DNA of 20,327 nucleotides from a virus. Each line of letters opens with the position of its first letter. Positions within the stretch are counted from its first letter, which is position 1. A model generated the notes under the pieces. The model had not been told where the DNA came from. It saw nothing but the letters and a program-made list of their open reading frames with translations, and did not search any database. The translations under genes and the position numbers were made by a program. The DNA is taken from IMG/VR virus record IMGVR_UViG_3300025543_000286, positions 1-20,327 of that record. One strand, 5' to 3'. Positions 3 through 12,544 of the stretch are shown here, one piece after another.

Positions 3-641
3 TTACAAAGGTCTATCGATAAACTTCGTACCGACTTGGACAACATGGCGGATAGTTCGGGCGACATGGGACAGGCCAACACTGACCTTAACTCTCTAGA
101 CTCGGAACTTCATGAGCGGACTGATGAGAAGTATGTTCTTAATGAGAAGGCATCTTACAATCGTATTGCTGGTGAGTTGCTTCGTGATACGGGAATCAAG
201 ACTAAGATTATCCGACAGTACATTCCGGTCATCAATGAGTTGACCAACAAGTACTTGCAGATTCTAGACTTCTTCGTTCACTTTGAACTAGATGATAGTT
301 TCAGTGAAACCATCCGGTCACGATATCGCGACACGTTCTCTTACGACTCGTTCTCCGAAGGTGAGAAACAGCGTATTGACCTGTCCCTACTATTTACTTG
401 GCGTCAGATTGCCAAGATGAAGAATTCTGTATCGACTAACTTGTTGATACTGGATGAGACGTTCGACTCTTCGTTGGACGGTGAAGGTGTAGATAACCTT
501 ATGAAGATTATCGACACATTGAAAGAAGACACTAACGTCTTCGTAATCTCTCACAAGACTGAACTTGAGGATGCTCACTTCGAACGCAAGCTGACATTCG
601 TTAAAGATAAAAACTTCAGTCGAATGAAAGAAAGCACTTGA
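3..641 (+). CDS. 46: Recombination endonuclease subunit gp46 (SbcC/Rad50-like), C-terminal part
   Basis: The gene is cut by the left edge; its frame is open from position 3, so the true start lies outside the window. What remains is the end of a coiled coil followed by the C-terminal half of an SMC/Rad50-type ATPase head. Visible are the ABC signature FSEGEKQRID (about 351-380), Walker B with catalytic Glu in LLILDETFDSSLD (about 450-485), and a switch histidine in VISHK (about 543-557). This matches T4 gp46, which with gp47 makes the exonuclease that resects DNA ends for recombination-dependent replication. Gene 45 follows, as expected in T4-like phages. The TGA stop (639-641) lies inside the -35 box of the next promoter. 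Confidence 0.95.
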   Translation, partial: LQRSIDKLRTDLDNMADSSGDMGQANTDLNSLDSELHERTDEKYVLNEKASYNRIAGELLRDTGIKTKIIRQYIPVINELTNKYLQILDFFVHFELDDSFSETIRSRYRDTFSYDSFSEGEKQRIDLSLLFTWRQIAKMKNSVSTNLLILDETFDSSLDGEGVDNLMKIIDTLKEDTNVFVISHKTELEDAHFERKLTFVKDKNFSRMKEST

Positions 642-666
642 CACACGGGTGTAAACTCTGTATAAT
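638..666 (+). promoter_or_regulatory. Strong sigma70-type promoter for the sliding clamp gene
   Basis: TTGACA at 638-643 and TATAAT at 661-666 are separated by 17 bases; both hexamers match the bacterial consensus exactly. The predicted start is near 673, giving a leader of about 23 bases before the gene 45 ATG. The -35 box contains the TGA stop of gene 46. The -10 box begins TATAATGGTCAC, a string repeated at 12539-12550 in another promoter. Confidence 0.88.
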
Positions 667-5931: not shown

Positions 5932-6729
5932 ATGAAAGCAATACAAATTGTTATGAAAGGTAATGAACGGTCTGAAGAGTATGCCTATCTCTCTCAACGT
6001 TCCTTTCAACGTGCCATCGATGATGGCTACATCGACTCCATCGAAACCTTCGATGCCATAACACCAGAAATTCCCGATTTTCAAGAACATGTAGATAAGT
6101 ACAAATGGTCTAAAAGTCTTATGCTTGCAGACACTCTTGGCCAAAACCCAGATGATCACTCCCCTACAGAAAAGGCGGGTATGTGTTCTCACTGGGAACT
6201 TATGCGTCAGCAGGGAGAGTCTGACGAGAAGTTCTGGATTATGGAACATGACACTTGGTTACTCGAAGAACGATACGAGTCCTTCAAACTACTCTCTGAG
6301 TACGCAGAGAACACACTCTACGCGAATATAGGATTGTTCATGGGTATGTACTGCATGGACAAGAGTTTCGCGCACTGGGGTCACTATATGTTAACACAGA
6401 AGGATTTCCCTATCAACTGTGGCCCATACTGTGTTCTCCAACGTCTTTTCAGAACATTCACCACTCGACACCTAGAACTCCCTGAAATAAATTATTACGG
6501 AATTCGTAATACCGCCTTGCATCCTTGGACTGAATGTGATACAATAGGCGTAGGACGTGACATTGGAGTTTACTTCAATAAACGAGATAAACACAAGACT
6601 GGTATTCCGACACCAACTACTCAGTTGATTTCAAAACGTTTGTCTGTGACCCAAGAGCATCACGGATACAGTGACAAAAACCAAGATGAACCTTGGACTA
6701 GACACAAGTTTTTTAAAGTTATTGATTGA
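5932..6729 (+). CDS. Glycosyltransferase-like protein (GT25-type pattern)
   Basis: This 265-residue protein shows SPTEKAGMCSHWELMRQ (residues 77-93) followed by FWIMEHDTWL (101-110). The pair recalls glycosyltransferase family 25 and LPS glycosyltransferases, where a conserved E-x-G-C-x-x-SH motif precedes an E-D-D metal site; here the second motif reads E-H-D. The middle is rich in aromatic residues and has several Cys. It may add a sugar to a host surface glycan, a virion protein or phage DNA; the acceptor is not visible. No ordinary ribosome site precedes the ATG, so translation may be coupled to a mini-ORF ending 3 bases upstream. Its TGA stop lies inside the next promoter's -35 box. Confidence 0.6.
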   Translation: MKAIQIVMKGNERSEEYAYLSQRSFQRAIDDGYIDSIETFDAITPEIPDFQEHVDKYKWSKSLMLADTLGQNPDDHSPTEKAGMCSHWELMRQQGESDEKFWIMEHDTWLLEERYESFKLLSEYAENTLYANIGLFMGMYCMDKSFAHWGHYMLTQKDFPINCGPYCVLQRLFRTFTTRHLELPEINYYGIRNTALHPWTECDTIGVGRDIGVYFNKRDKHKTGIPTPTTQLISKRLSVTQEHHGYSDKNQDEPWTRHKFFKVID

Positions 6730-6754
6730 CAGGGTCGTTATATTAGTGTATAAT
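6726..6754 (+). promoter_or_regulatory. Sigma70-type promoter fused to upstream stop codon
   Basis: TTGACA at 6726-6731 and TATAAT at 6749-6754, 17 bases apart, are both perfect. The predicted start near 6761 lies downstream of an ATG at 6753, so translation must begin at the ATG at 6780. The -35 contains the TGA stop of the glycosyltransferase-like gene. Confidence 0.87.
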
Positions 6755-6779
6755 GTGTCAACTGAATGAGAGATTTATT

Positions 6780-7916
6780 ATGATTCTAAACCAAACTGAT
6801 GCAATATATGCTGCAAACATCTTCGATGAGTTCTTCGGAAGTTTCAATCGTATTGACGAATACCAACGTTCCATAAAGATGGATAGGATGAAAACTTTCC
6901 CTGCTTCTTTGCCGGGCATGGGCCCTGAGACAGATGTCTTCGATGATTTCAACATCCACCCAAACGACATGGAGTTCTCTATCTTCGAGTGTCGACAAGA
7001 CCAGTTCATGACCTACATGGAGATAACAACTTCCGCTCCAGTCGAGTCGTCAATCCCCGGCAAGCAACTACTTTACATGGTCAAGGAGAAGAACACCGGA
7101 CAGATATTCGGTATGATTCGTTTCGGTTCTCCTACTATCAACTCTCGTCCTCGCAATGAGTGGTTGGGTGCACCTCTCGCCACCATGAATCCAGACGTGA
7201 TGCATCGTTTCAATAAGTCCGCTATTATGGGATTCAATATCGTTCCTGTACAACCAGCGGGTTTCAATTATTTGGGAGGAAAATTATTGGCGGCCATCTG
7301 TTGTTCTCATCAAGTTCGTCGTGCGCTTAACAAAAAGTATGATGCGAACATATGTCTTTTCGAAACAACTAGTCTCTATGGGTCTACTAAGTCTTCTTCC
7401 ATGTATGACGGTATGCGTCCGTTCCTACGTCATAGTGGTTTGACAGACTCTAACTTTGCTCCACTTATCAATGATGAAAAGTTCCGGTCTCTCAATGATT
7501 GGTTCAAGCAACGCAACGAAGGTGACTATCTTGTTCCCGCTGACGCGTCGTCACGTAAACTCAAGACTCAGACAAAGATGGCATCTATCATCAAAGCGTC
7601 ACTGAAGGGTGTGGATGATAATTCATATAATAAGTTCTGTCAGACAATTGTAGATGCGAAAGGATTGACAGAACGTAAGCGTTCGTATTATAGTACGTAT
7701 GGTCATGAGGCCCAGTCAGTCAAGGACTACATGAACTTGAAGACCGACGAAATCAAACCATCAGAAAACTTTGACAGATTCGAAGTTGAGAATGTTATTG
7801 AGTGGTGGCGCAACAAAGCGTCTAAACGATATGAGACTCTCAAGTCCGAAGGTAGACTACGCACAACAGTTGAGACGTGGAATACCAACCCCGAAGAAAT
7901 TGACATTATTCGGTAA
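6780..7916 (+). CDS. DruA/DUF4338-like protein
   Basis: The 378-residue protein has a central region whose order of motifs resembles DUF4338, the domain of DruA from the Druantia defence system: GQIFGMIRFGSPTINSRPRNEWLG (residues 107-130), a FNIVPVQPAGFNYLGGKLLAAI segment (152-173), then FETTSLYGSTKSSSMYDG (194-211). This assignment comes from remembered family patterns and was not searched. Its biochemical activity is unknown. The start is ATG 6780, with GAGAGA (6768-6773) 6 bases upstream; ATG 6753 is excluded because it lies in the -10 box. The gene has its own strong promoter, so early expression is likely. Confidence 0.5.
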   Translation: MILNQTDAIYAANIFDEFFGSFNRIDEYQRSIKMDRMKTFPASLPGMGPETDVFDDFNIHPNDMEFSIFECRQDQFMTYMEITTSAPVESSIPGKQLLYMVKEKNTGQIFGMIRFGSPTINSRPRNEWLGAPLATMNPDVMHRFNKSAIMGFNIVPVQPAGFNYLGGKLLAAICCSHQVRRALNKKYDANICLFETTSLYGSTKSSSMYDGMRPFLRHSGLTDSNFAPLINDEKFRSLNDWFKQRNEGDYLVPADASSRKLKTQTKMASIIKASLKGVDDNSYNKFCQTIVDAKGLTERKRSYYSTYGHEAQSVKDYMNLKTDEIKPSENFDRFEVENVIEWWRNKASKRYETLKSEGRLRTTVETWNTNPEEIDIIR

Positions 7917-8041: not shown

Positions 8042-9025
8042 ATGAACAGCCCAACAGCAAAACCAACACCTGCAAACGTTACAGCAAAACTACTCGCCTC
8101 TACTGGTTCCGTCTTCCAAGAAAATGTTACAATTAAACTAGAAGATATCTATGTACCTAAATCTGATGTGACGGGAAATAATAATCCCTCTCGTTACACT
8201 ATAGACATAGGTAACGTAAATGGAATTGCGGATTCTTTTCGCAATGGGGGTCAAGACTTGAGTCTTACCCTTCCTGTAGTTGAGAAACTACCAAAACCAC
8301 TAAAGATTGACGGTAAGATTCATACATACCGTTTGGTCTGTGGTGCGCACCGTGTTGCCGCTGGAAAACAAGTCAAATTCGAGGAAATGGTATTCTCGGT
8401 CTACAAGTTTGATAGTGACAATGCCCGTCTGAAATTTCAGTTGTTGGAGAACAATCATGCCCCTAGTAAAAGTGCAACTGCACAAGACTTGTGTAATGCA
8501 CTCACCTACGCTGTCTTCAAGGGATTCATCCAAAATGACGAGGAGTCTATGCGTGAGTATCTTGGGGGGATGGACAAGATTCACGGTAACACAATAAACA
8601 AAGCCATTCAAATGGCAATACGTGATACTGGTGGATATCAGGACTACCACATCTATACTCCCGAAGACATTGCAGACTTCACTAAAAAACATGATTATTC
8701 TTTGGGTGGTATAAAGGATAAGAATCGTGAAGAAGCTGGTTGGACAGTAAAAGAGGGTTACGAGTACGAGTACATAATGAACGCTGTTAAGAAGTACTCA
8801 ACAGAAGGTCTAGAGAGTTACTTCATTTGTCACACTAAGTCGCCTACCGAACGACATTCATTAGACGATAAGCGTGATGGAATGACGGAACAGTTTGAAT
8901 CTCTCGAAAGGTCTCTTGTCAAGGTGTTTGAGTATCACCAAGAACATGGTTCTTTCCCTTGGAGAATTGAGGGTTTCTTACCTCAAGACAACAACCGATC
9001 TGAAAGGGAGCTCGTTACATTATGA
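8042..9025 (+). CDS. ParB-like nuclease/partition-domain protein
   Basis: A 327-residue protein with a ParB N-terminal-type domain at about residues 30-150. It has a LEDIYVPKSD entry, an IADSFRNGGQD helix, LPVVEKLP, then YRLVCGAHRVAAGKQ (96-110), where GAHRVAA stands in for the ParB/Srx G-x-x-R-x-x-A box. Helical regions and a charged C-terminal half follow with no recognised domain. ParB-fold proteins in phages bind DNA or nucleotides and some act as nucleases; the role here is unknown. AAGGA at 8030-8034 gives a good ribosome site. The stop overlaps the next ATG by 4 bases, so the two are probably coupled. Confidence 0.65.
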   Translation: MNSPTAKPTPANVTAKLLASTGSVFQENVTIKLEDIYVPKSDVTGNNNPSRYTIDIGNVNGIADSFRNGGQDLSLTLPVVEKLPKPLKIDGKIHTYRLVCGAHRVAAGKQVKFEEMVFSVYKFDSDNARLKFQLLENNHAPSKSATAQDLCNALTYAVFKGFIQNDEESMREYLGGMDKIHGNTINKAIQMAIRDTGGYQDYHIYTPEDIADFTKKHDYSLGGIKDKNREEAGWTVKEGYEYEYIMNAVKKYSTEGLESYFICHTKSPTERHSLDDKRDGMTEQFESLERSLVKVFEYHQEHGSFPWRIEGFLPQDNNRSERELVTL

Positions 9026-9591
9026 ACCATGTGAATCAACAACTCAAAACACAGTGGGGTTCATACTCGGATCGTCAAGATAGTTTTGACGATTCCGAGG
9101 ACATCTCTCGATTCATTACAATGGTCGGTGAGAGTCATCCCCTCAAAAAATATATTAAAAACTATATAGAGTTAGGGGACTATCGTTGGGTTTCTCATCC
9201 TGATCGCACTGATGATGATCCCGAGGGTAAGTATGGGGTTGACCTTGCACTTGTAGAGAGAGGTACTAATAAACGCATAGCCAACTTCGATCTAGAACGG
9301 TGGAGTGTTTGGAAGAAAGATTGGCCTCCTTTTTATAAGTCGATCCACTTCCTTGGACGTAAAGAAAAGTTTCTTCGGAAGGGTGTTCCTTTCTTCATGT
9401 GTTATCTAAACTATGATATGGATCGAGTTCTGGTGGTTGAGGAAGAGATTATTATCAAGTATCCCACAGTAGATACTCATTTCAAAAAGAAGTATGTCAT
9501 TGACACCCTTAAAAAGATTCCCCTAACTCTAGGAAATATCTTTGGTAAATACTCCGAGAAAGAAAGTATAATGTTTCAAACGGGGGATTGA
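9022..9591 (+). CDS. Hypothetical protein, possible PD-(D/E)XK-like nuclease fold
   Basis: A 189-residue protein. The central stretch [28 protein letters not shown] (residues 70-97) has an acidic residue after a beta strand (D74) and a second acidic cluster in DLER (90-93), followed by [11 protein letters not shown] (108-118). Several phage proteins of restriction-endonuclease fold show this order, but the usual E-x-K reads E-R-W here, so activity is doubtful. It begins with an ATGA overlap with the ParB-like gene, and the two may act together. The last codons and stop form part of a terminator hairpin that also holds the next promoter's -35 box. Confidence 0.55.
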
Positions 9592-9606
9592 CATCCCCAT
9601 TTTTTT
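9583..9606 (+). terminator. Intrinsic terminator nested in the gene 43 promoter
   Basis: GGGGAT (9583-9588) pairs perfectly with ATCCCC (9593-9598) around the loop TGAC. Seven T residues follow (9600-9606) after one A. The loop contains the TGA stop of the upstream gene, and the downstream -35 box spans the loop. Form and position both support a real terminator, although a 6-base stem is short. Confidence 0.75.
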
Positions 9607-9616
9607 CTGTTATAAT
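9588..9616 (+). promoter_or_regulatory. Sigma70-type promoter for DNA polymerase gene 43
   Basis: TTGACA at 9588-9593 and TATAAT at 9611-9616, 17 bases apart, both perfect. The predicted start near 9623 gives a 22-base leader. The spacer is largely the T-run of the nested terminator. Confidence 0.87.
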
Positions 9617-9644
9617 ACCTATATCATTCTACAAAAGAGTACCT

Positions 9645-12122
9645 ATGTCTAATTTTTATACGTCAGTTGTCCGTTTCGGCAACAAACTACTATACCGTGG
9701 TTTCGAGAACGGTCAGGAAGTAAAACATAGAATCCCATTCAAACCCACACTATTCATGTCCGGAGAAAGCGAGGAAGGTTGGACTACCCTAGACGGTATT
9801 CCGATGCAACCCGTTATCTTCGAATCCATGTCAGACGCCAAAGATTTCAACAAACGTTATGAGAACGTCTCTAACTTCGAAATCGCAGGCAATACTAACT
9901 ATGTCGCACAATTCATTGCGGAAGAGTGGCCCGACCGTATCGAATATGACCGCAGTCTAATCAAGACCGCTAACATCGATATTGAGGTCTTCTCGGCCGA
10001 TGGTTTCCCTGCCCCCGAAGATGCGGCACATCCTATTACCGCTATCTGTATGCGAGAGAACACAGGCACTTACTGGGTCTGGGGTTGTGGTGACTACACG
10101 CCCACGCGTGAGGATGTCCTATACATCAAGTGTGACAACGAGGTTGACCTTGTCCGCAAGTTCGTTCGACGATTCGAAGAGTATGCCCCTAACGTAATTA
10201 CCGGATGGAACACACGATTCTTTGATATTCCCTATCTCCATAATCGAATGGTGAAACTGTTTGGTGACGATACTCTGGCAAAGCGTATGTCTCCGTGGGG
10301 ACTCATCCGTGAACGCAACACCACTATCAATGGTAAATTGAACCAAGAGTTTATTCTCGAAGGCATCGAACAACTCGACTACTTGGAAGTCTTCAAGAAG
10401 TTCACCTACAATACTCTAGGACAACAGGAATCATATCGACTCGACCATATCTCCCACGTTGTGTTGGGTGAACGTAAACTCTCATATGCTGAACATGGAA
10501 ATCTCCACACGTTATACGAGAAGGATTACCAGAAGTTTATTGACTATAACGTGAAGGACGTTGAGTTAGTACATAACCTAGATGTCAAACTCGACCTCAT
10601 CGACCTTATCTTCACTATGGCCTATAAGGCGGGTGTGAACTATAACGACACTCTTGGTACTACCGCCATCTGGGATACCATCATCTATCGACTGTTGAAC
10701 AAACAAAACATTGCCGTTCCCAAGAAAGTCGAGAAACCTAAGACACCATATTCCGGTGGTTATGTGAAAGACCCACAAGTTGGATCTCATGACTGGGTAA
10801 CCTCTTTCGATTTAAACTCTCTATATCCCAATATCATTGTTCAGTATAACATGTCGCCCGAGACTGTCATGGATGGATTCCAGAACGGTGTGTCTGTGGA
10901 TAAATTCCTAGATGGTACCGCAAACATAGGACAGCCAGGATACTCTGTAGCTCCTACTGGGATTCGATTCACGCATGATCGTGAAGGTGTTATCCCTACC
11001 GTAATTAAACAGTACTACACCGAACGACGCATCATAAAGAAGGAGATGTTGAAGTCCCAACAAGAGATGCAGACAAATCCGTCCAAGGAATTAGAATATA
11101 AGATTTCTTCTCTCGACAACCAACAGATGGCGATCAAGATTCTTATGAACTCCCTCTATGGTGCGTTGGGTAACCGATGGTTCCGTTACTTCGATCAACG
11201 TGTTGCAGAGTCGATTACTCTTGCTGGTCAACTTGCGATTAAGTGGGCAGAACGTGCAGTGAATGGTGCGATGCAAGATGTTCTCAAAACAGATGAGGAC
11301 TACGTTGTTGCTATCGATACTGACTCTGTGTATATTCGCATGGGTGATCTGGTCGAGAAGTTTTCTCCGAACAATCCTGTTAAGTTCCTAGACAAGATAT
11401 GCTCCGAGCACTTCGAGAAAGTTTTGGAAACATCTTATGCGGAGATGGCACTCGTCACTGGTGCGTATGAGAATCGTATGGAGATGGGTCGTGAGGTAAT
11501 TGCAGACCGTGGTATCTGGATGGCAAAGAAACGATACATCCTGAACGTGCATAATAACGAGGGTGTCCAGTACGCAGAACCTAAGCTCAAGATGATGGGT
11601 ATCGAGGCAATCAAGTCATCAACTCCTTCGGTTGTCCGTGACAAGATGAAAGAAATCTTTCGTGTACTTGTGGAAGGTACCGAGGAAACTACACAGGGAT
11701 TTATCCGTGACTTCAAGACTCTGTTCAAGTCTTTGCCTCCCGAAGAGGTGTCGTTCCCTCGCGGAGTCTCCAATCTTGAGAAGTGGAGAGATCGAGATAC
11801 TATTTTCAAGAAGGGGACTCCTATACACGTGCGTGGATCCTTGTGTTATAACAATCTAATCAATCAGAGTAAACTAGGCAATAGGTATGAACTGGTCAAG
11901 CCAGGCGAGAAGGTAAAGTTTGTCTATCTGAAAGTTCCGAATCGTCTGGGTGAAAATGTCGTGGCGTATCCTCAACACCTCCCCGAAGAACTTGGTTTGC
12001 ATAAACATGTAGATTATGACCTAATGTTCAGTAAGACTTTCCTAGACCCACTCGAACCAATTCTGGACGCAGTTGGTTGGACGGCAGAACCTCGTGCCAC
12101 ATTGGAGGACTTCTTTGGATAA
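9645..12122 (+). CDS. 43: DNA polymerase gp43 (family B, with 3'-5' exonuclease)
   Basis: The 825-residue protein is a complete T4-type replicative polymerase (T4: 898 residues). Exonuclease motifs are ExoI NIDIEVF (D112, E114), Exo[17 protein letters not shown] (D194) and Exo[11 protein letters not shown] (D305). Polymerase motifs are [16 protein letters not shown] (D389), [16 protein letters not shown] (498-512), [12 protein letters not shown] (D558, D560) and KKRY (628-631). It ends in ATLEDFFG, a hydrophobic-acidic tail like those by which T4-type polymerases bind the gp45 clamp. ATG 9645 has an AAGAG-type site a few bases upstream and follows the promoter start; upstream in-frame starts lie in the promoter. 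All catalytic residues are present. Confidence 0.97.
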
Positions 12123-12519
12123 GATTATAGAACATTGCTTCACCAAGGATGAAATATCAATTTATAAGAGAATACGAAGTCTCCAACAAAATGTCGGGAG
12201 AAGTTTAGAAAATTATATACGAGACAACTTCCTTAGTGAAGACGAGGGTGTTATATTCGTTGGCCGTGATAAGAATAGACCAGAAGGCGTAGATTTCATT
12301 ATCGATGGCGTAGAATGGTCGGTAAAAAATGCTTGGAACACCGACAACCATTCTATGAAAAAATACAGGGAAGATAGAAACATAAACCATTGGTACAGGT
12401 TGAATAGAGACGGCTCGACCAATTGGGAAACTTTATTCGTTAGAGGGTTGTCGGAAAGTGGATTTCTAGAGTATATTACCGGAGAACAACAAGCATCATT
12501 GGAAGATTTCTTCGATTGA
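12115..12519 (+). CDS. PD-(D/E)XK-like nuclease candidate with a clamp-binding-like tail
   Basis: A 134-residue protein. The core reads [27 protein letters not shown] (about residues 55-81), with D60 and an E67-x-S69-x-K71 cluster plausible as a divergent PD-(D/E)XK site. The following N-T-x-N and a [16 protein letters not shown] stretch recall SinI/AvaII-type restriction enzymes; this is a memory-based comparison. The protein ends QASLEDFFD, nearly the same as the polymerase's ATLEDFFG. The start is TTG 12115, overlapping the gene 43 stop, with GGAGG (12104-12108) 6 bases upstream; no ATG fits. Its position after gene 43 and shared tail suggest it acts at the clamp. Confidence 0.6.
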
Positions 12520-12544
12520 CAGACACACCACTTTATGATATAAT
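12516..12544 (+). promoter_or_regulatory. Sigma70-type promoter for the primase-like gene
   Basis: TTGACA at 12516-12521 and TATAAT at 12539-12544, 17 bases apart, both perfect. The TGA stop of the nuclease candidate is inside the -35 box. The predicted transcription start coincides with the ATG at 12551, which would make the message leaderless. Confidence 0.85.

Follow-up and report, generated by a model that had tools for sequence, protein, structure and literature searches.

In the filamentous phages f1 and M13 the terminator and the gene III promoter overlap, and phage 'moron' cassettes consist of cargo genes with a promoter and a terminator of their own. Overlapping regulatory signals are a known kind of arrangement, and a terminator whose loop carries a -35 box, of which no description was found in the open-licence literature including phage transcriptomes (subscription literature lay outside this coverage), is a variant of it. 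Work in E. coli shows that the ribosome following RNA polymerase represses a terminator nearly completely when the stop codon is only a few bases away, and that termination recovers once the distance from stop codon to terminator exceeds ~30 bp (PMC4824070).

Such a variant lies upstream of the gp43 polymerase gene in the window analysed here, a 20,327-base IMG/VR contig of a marine T4-like phage. The window carries T4-type replication genes: the end of an SbcC/gp46-like gene, the clamp gp45, the clamp loader gp44, Hsp20, the gp43 polymerase, a primase-like protein, UvsX and a gp41-like helicase. Among named phages, C48C1 (Kyanoviridae) has the most similar gp43, at 71.8% identity; a nucleotide search of named phages with the element region gave no match, and an Rfam scan of the window returned a tRNA and nothing else. 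With a probability of about 0.68, the element is predicted to be a terminate-and-restart boundary, at which an intrinsic terminator would close the transcription unit of genes interposed ahead of gp43 and a sigma70-type promoter, with its -35 box in the loop and the U-tract as its spacer, would restart gp43 transcription ~17-23 bases further on.

Anatomy of the element upstream of gp43

The initial annotation had described a stem with a stop codon in its TGAC loop, a -35 box on that loop, a T-run within the promoter spacer and a -10 box, and every one of these features was found at exactly the positions it had given (Table 1). Directly 3′ of the stem, the U-tract region (9599-9606) consists of an A followed by TTTTTTT. 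The promoter is of sigma70 type, with a 12/12 match at a spacing of 17 (TTGACA-17-TATAAT), and would start transcription near 9623. It is one of five 12/12 matches in the window, while the hairpin ranks first among the 19 terminator-like sites of the window and was the sole terminator found there by a stricter scan.

Folded in isolation, the hairpin has a 6-bp stem with 4 GC pairs and a modest predicted stability of -9.3 kcal mol-1 (z -1.8); all other gp43-linked hairpins that were folded came out stronger, at -12.6 to -18.3 kcal mol-1. Folding of the whole 81-base region with its flanks was uninformative, the region being no more stable than its shuffles (z -0.44). A second contig bears an identical copy of the element (L006/L108).

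Table 1. Positions of the element, neighbouring genes and plain promoters in the window.
Feature	Position	Strand	Remarks
Plain promoter before clamp gene gp45	638-666	+	Stop codon of SbcC/gp46-like gene in -35 box; no hairpin
5932 gene	5932-6729	+	Homologue directly before gp43 in 19 relatives; stop TGA in -35 box at 6726
Plain promoter	6726-6754	+	Stop codon of 5932 gene in -35 box; no hairpin
DruA-like gene	6774-7916	+	First interposed gene between 5932 gene and gp43; PF14236 E 5e-11, phrog_19197
Gene upstream of gp43	9022-9591	+	189 aa; stop codon within hairpin loop
Terminator stem, 5′ arm GGGGAT	9583-9588	+
-35 box TTGACA	9588-9593	+	6/6; covers end of 5′ arm, loop and start of 3′ arm
Hairpin loop TGAC	9589-9592	+	Contains stop codon TGA (9589-9591) of ORF 9022-9591
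Terminator stem, 3′ arm ATCCCC	9593-9598	+
T-run (7 T)	9600-9606	+	Terminator U-tract and promoter spacer at once
-10 box TATAAT	9611-9616	+	Extended TGn at 9608-9610
gp43-type DNA polymerase gene	9645-12122	+	Start ATG 9645; phrog_262, E 4.8e-303
Plain promoter before primase-like gene	12516-12544	+	Stop codon of 12073-12519 in -35 box; no hairpin

Interposed genes, stems and stop codons

Thirty-two distinct promoter regions upstream of gp43, taken from the best 80 of 272 gp43 contigs with related loci counted separately, were compared, and the promoter matched at 10-12 of 12 positions in all of them. The initial annotation had named relatives with the promoter but not the stem as a refuting outcome, and 23 of the 32 loci are of this kind. 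The absence of the stem is ordered, and depends on whether a gene is interposed before gp43. In 19 of the 32 loci the gene directly upstream of gp43 is a homologue of the 5932 gene, with identity down to 30%, and this order is therefore likely to be ancestral. Hairpins were found at none of these 19 loci, which carry the promoter alone, in 16 cases with the TGA of the 5932 homologue inside the -35 box. At the loci with another gene before gp43, a hairpin was present in 9 of 13 (one-sided hypergeometric probability ~2.5e-5, calculated by hand and uncorrected for kinship). A hairpin required at all interposed-gene loci was ruled out by the four that lack one (L030, L032, L044 and L058).

In genomes for which the wider region was covered (G001, G003, G008 and G010) the 5932 homologue, with a promoter of its own, was located 2.4-2.9 kb further upstream, as it is in the window (promoters at 6726 and 9588), indicating that genes have been interposed before gp43. 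The upstream genes vary. The gene at 9022-9591 had no match in PHROG, Pfam or named phages, and its relatives, 81-82% identical, lie upstream of gp43 in L008 and L029; a D12 adenine methyltransferase gene takes this position in L059, the proteins of L007, L022 and L028 have an HNH-like end by eye, that of L007 also a weak, below-cutoff match to GmrSD_N, and others are without match. In an alignment anchored on TTGACA, four contigs (L022, L025, L028 and L029) are near-identical downstream of the hairpin and unlike one another upstream of it, so that cargo and core would join close to the hairpin. In G005 the gp43 promoter is plain, and the composite of hairpin and promoter is found before the primase gene, after a different upstream gene; a similar gene with a hairpin occurs in L092 and L110, and before primase in L111. 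The element follows the interposed genes (9/13 vs 0/19; primase in G005) and not the core gene.

Pairing was kept in stems of different sequence before gp43 (GGGGAT/ATCCCC, GGGGGTT/AACCCCC, GGGGTTG/CAACCCC and AGGGGGG/CCCCCCT), with a T-run that is short or broken in L007, L009, L033, L045 and L059. The three-in-one element initially proposed was real as packing, and its recurrence with different stems makes the joining of terminator and promoter look like a selected design; the idea of a fixed unit of three parts was not borne out.

The place of the stop codon was assessed in eleven related records, with 4-19 perfect promoters each, by counting the TGA of TTGACA wherever the open frame that it ended was 100 codons or longer. 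This was the case for 38 of 123 perfect promoters (31%), compared with 5 of 551 TTGACA sequences lacking a -10 box and 1% for random TGA. Placing a stop codon in the -35 box is thus a broad habit of this phage group, independent of the hairpin. Stop codons in a hairpin loop were found only in the gene-9022 family before gp43 (the window, L008 and L029/L056), as a weak case in L059 and, separately, in one unrelated family (L089/L097). At other hairpin loci the stop codon lies 11-23 nt before the -35 box. The notion that promoters of this group generally include the hairpin was discarded, as it is present at no more than a few of the 14-41 strong promoters per genome.

Several further features of these genomes were recorded. 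Homologues of the DruA-like protein, 53-57% identical, occur in cyanophages and in Pelagibacter phage HTVC008M, and frequently adjoin clamp loader or polymerase genes. Directly 3′ of gp43, the frame 12073-12519 encodes a small SinI-restriction-enzyme-like protein (PF09570, E 5e-5) whose C-terminus, LEDFFD, resembles the gp43 end LEDFFG and is perhaps a clamp-binding tail; the methyltransferase of L059 ends in LEEFFG. In L032, L035, L036 and L047 the promoter stretch is present in tandem (GACATACTCTCCCAATCTAGGTATAAT twice) just upstream of gp43.

Recurrence of the layout and alternative explanations

A hairpin-blind search for TTGACA-N6-T6-N5-TATAAT promoters in viral contigs, with near-duplicates removed and strict hairpin criteria, gave 35 promoters out of 91 (38%) whose -35 box sits at the centre of a GC hairpin, compared with 1 of 116 in bacterial genomes; the location of this peak is partly forced by the choice of T-run, and the contrast with bacteria is the informative figure. 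Composites from this search lay between co-directional genes in 36 of 45 cases. In a promoter-blind search for GGGG..TTGACA..CCCC hairpins, for which neither a T-run nor a -10 box was required, 51 of 112 hairpins were accompanied by a -10 box that matched at 5/6 or better and was spaced at 16-18, against 0-7 at four shifted positions. Good -10 boxes were present for 27 of the 40 hairpins with a T-run.

A motif-independent sample of 1.53 Mb, comprising gp43 relatives and whole phage genomes, yielded 125 terminators; nine strong promoters were no more than 4 nt away from a hairpin centre, and each of the other 14 bins of 9 nt contained 0-1, with eight of the nine belonging to related gp43 loci. 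Motif-fetched viral contigs with the seeds masked gave 8 promoters at offset 0, but the bins from -58 to -32 likewise contained 6-8 each. This second, broader excess, 32-58 bp before terminator centres, would correspond to a terminator immediately following the transcription start. Among promoters picked by the extended -10 box alone, a hairpin was found in 4 of 138, and the design is therefore a minority among phage promoters. Four composites with four different stems, each intergenic, were found at 25658, 27766, 74761 and 77246 in the isolate Lactococcus phage WRP3, and one weaker composite in Synechococcus phage S-SRM01. Recurrence of this layout in unrelated phages suggests a compact terminate-and-restart boundary, often after an inserted extra gene.

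Two further promoter classes were encountered. A promoter of the form AACTGGCAAAATCCAG-TTGACA-CCCCTCTTTTTT-..-TATAAT recurs in 15 contigs (L147, L152, L163, L165, L167, L169, L173, L176, L183, L188, L202, L221, L223, L228 and L243); its -35 box directly adjoins a CTGG-N6-CCAG inverted repeat, and it may represent an operator class. The L187 contig (G018) carries, at ~109-160 kb, thirteen near-identical TTGACA-A6..8-T6..7-..-TATAAT promoters within 51 kb on one strand.

An inverted repeat over a -35 box could also act mainly as an operator, a double-stranded palindrome at which a dimeric repressor would bind and block the promoter. The terminator account leaves palindromic -35 boxes without a T-run unexplained, and an operator would accommodate them: 24 of the 72 such palindromes in the promoter-blind search have a good -10 box (e.g., L471, L383 and L384), and the CTGG-N6-CCAG repeats supply a second palindrome class. 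Against this, the arms differ among related gp43 loci and among the sites of WRP3, the T-run stands on one side only, as in a terminator, and most promoters in the same genomes lack a palindrome. No single palindrome sequence was seen at many sites of one phage; the 16-mer itself recurs across contigs. We consider the operator explanation unlikely.

Rather unlikely as well is a functional promoter whose hairpin acts after transcription, as a 3′ end that shields the upstream mRNA or is processed from it, with little termination. A stop codon in or beside the stem should repress termination (PMC4824070), as this explanation would have it, but intrinsic terminators usually take just this shape, a GC stem with a T-run immediately after it, and a processing hairpin needs no U-tract. 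Finally, a chance meeting of a GC palindrome, a T-run and a promoter in an AT-rich genome, with which the unexceptional folding of the 81-base region would agree, is very improbable given the offset peak in motif-independent DNA, the different stems, the single case among 116 bacterial promoters and the link to interposed genes.

Predicted working of the proposed boundary and comparison with known systems

What the sequences show directly for the terminate-and-restart boundary is the anatomy of the element, including the bases shared by both signals, the return of the layout under varied stems and its association with interposed genes. From these we infer that both signals are active and that the role of the element would be insulation of the cargo unit. 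By geometry, RNA polymerase pausing in the U-tract necessarily sits over the promoter, so that use of the DNA as terminator and as promoter would exclude each other in time; a bound promoter complex would in turn block an approaching polymerase. RNA polymerases may plausibly interfere with one another at the element.

The stop codon in the loop is probably a by-product of the TGA within TTGACA in a compact genome. A ribosome close behind RNA polymerase would hide the 5′ arm and lead to read-through into gp43, while untranslated transcripts would terminate at the hairpin. Where the upstream gene is translated, the stop in the loop is therefore expected to make termination weaker, not stronger. 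With stop codons at gp43 loci either in the loop or at the short distances given above, strong termination would be expected only in the absence of translation. The suggestion of the initial annotation that ribosomes could affect hairpin formation thereby gains a sign, with translation predicted to promote read-through. The claim that the element ends upstream transcription thereby becomes a conditional one, because a stop codon this near represses a terminator in E. coli (PMC4824070). That the terminator with the next gene's -35 box in its loop is a widespread phage-specific device, in which cargo termination and core re-initiation exclude each other on the shared DNA and translation of the cargo gene as far as the loop's stop codon is the switch between read-through and restart, is a tentative and, taken as a whole, doubtful proposition.

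If the boundary works as predicted, phages of unrelated groups fit both the close of a transcription unit and the opening of its successor into ~35 bases, with the -35 box as the loop. The composite would be of use in annotation as an operon-boundary motif, which separate promoter and terminator searches score as two unrelated features, and would flag sites where extra genes were added before core replication genes. It also offers a simple system for testing how transcription, termination and translation compete where they share bases.

Like other intrinsic (Rho-independent) terminators, the element has a GC-rich stem, a 4-nt loop and a 7-T tract between co-directional genes; unlike them, its loop and U-tract double as a promoter, a stop codon lies inside the hairpin and the stem is only 6 bp. 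It shares with the T4-like early promoters of host sigma70 type a perfect TTGACA-17-TATAAT and an extended -10, but a hairpin on the -35 box is found in only one or two promoters per genome. As at the ribosome-repressed terminators of E. coli (PMC4824070), the stop codon is <30 bp from the hairpin at gp43 loci, but in this element the stop falls within the loop and a promoter overlaps the same hairpin. The interposed genes resemble morons in lying within the core gene order and being closed by a putative terminator; they differ in that this terminator forms one element with the promoter of the core gene that follows, and in that some cassettes have no terminator (L030 and L032). The arrangement in f1 and M13, likened here by description only, is similar in that, where two genes adjoin, a terminator overlaps the promoter after it.
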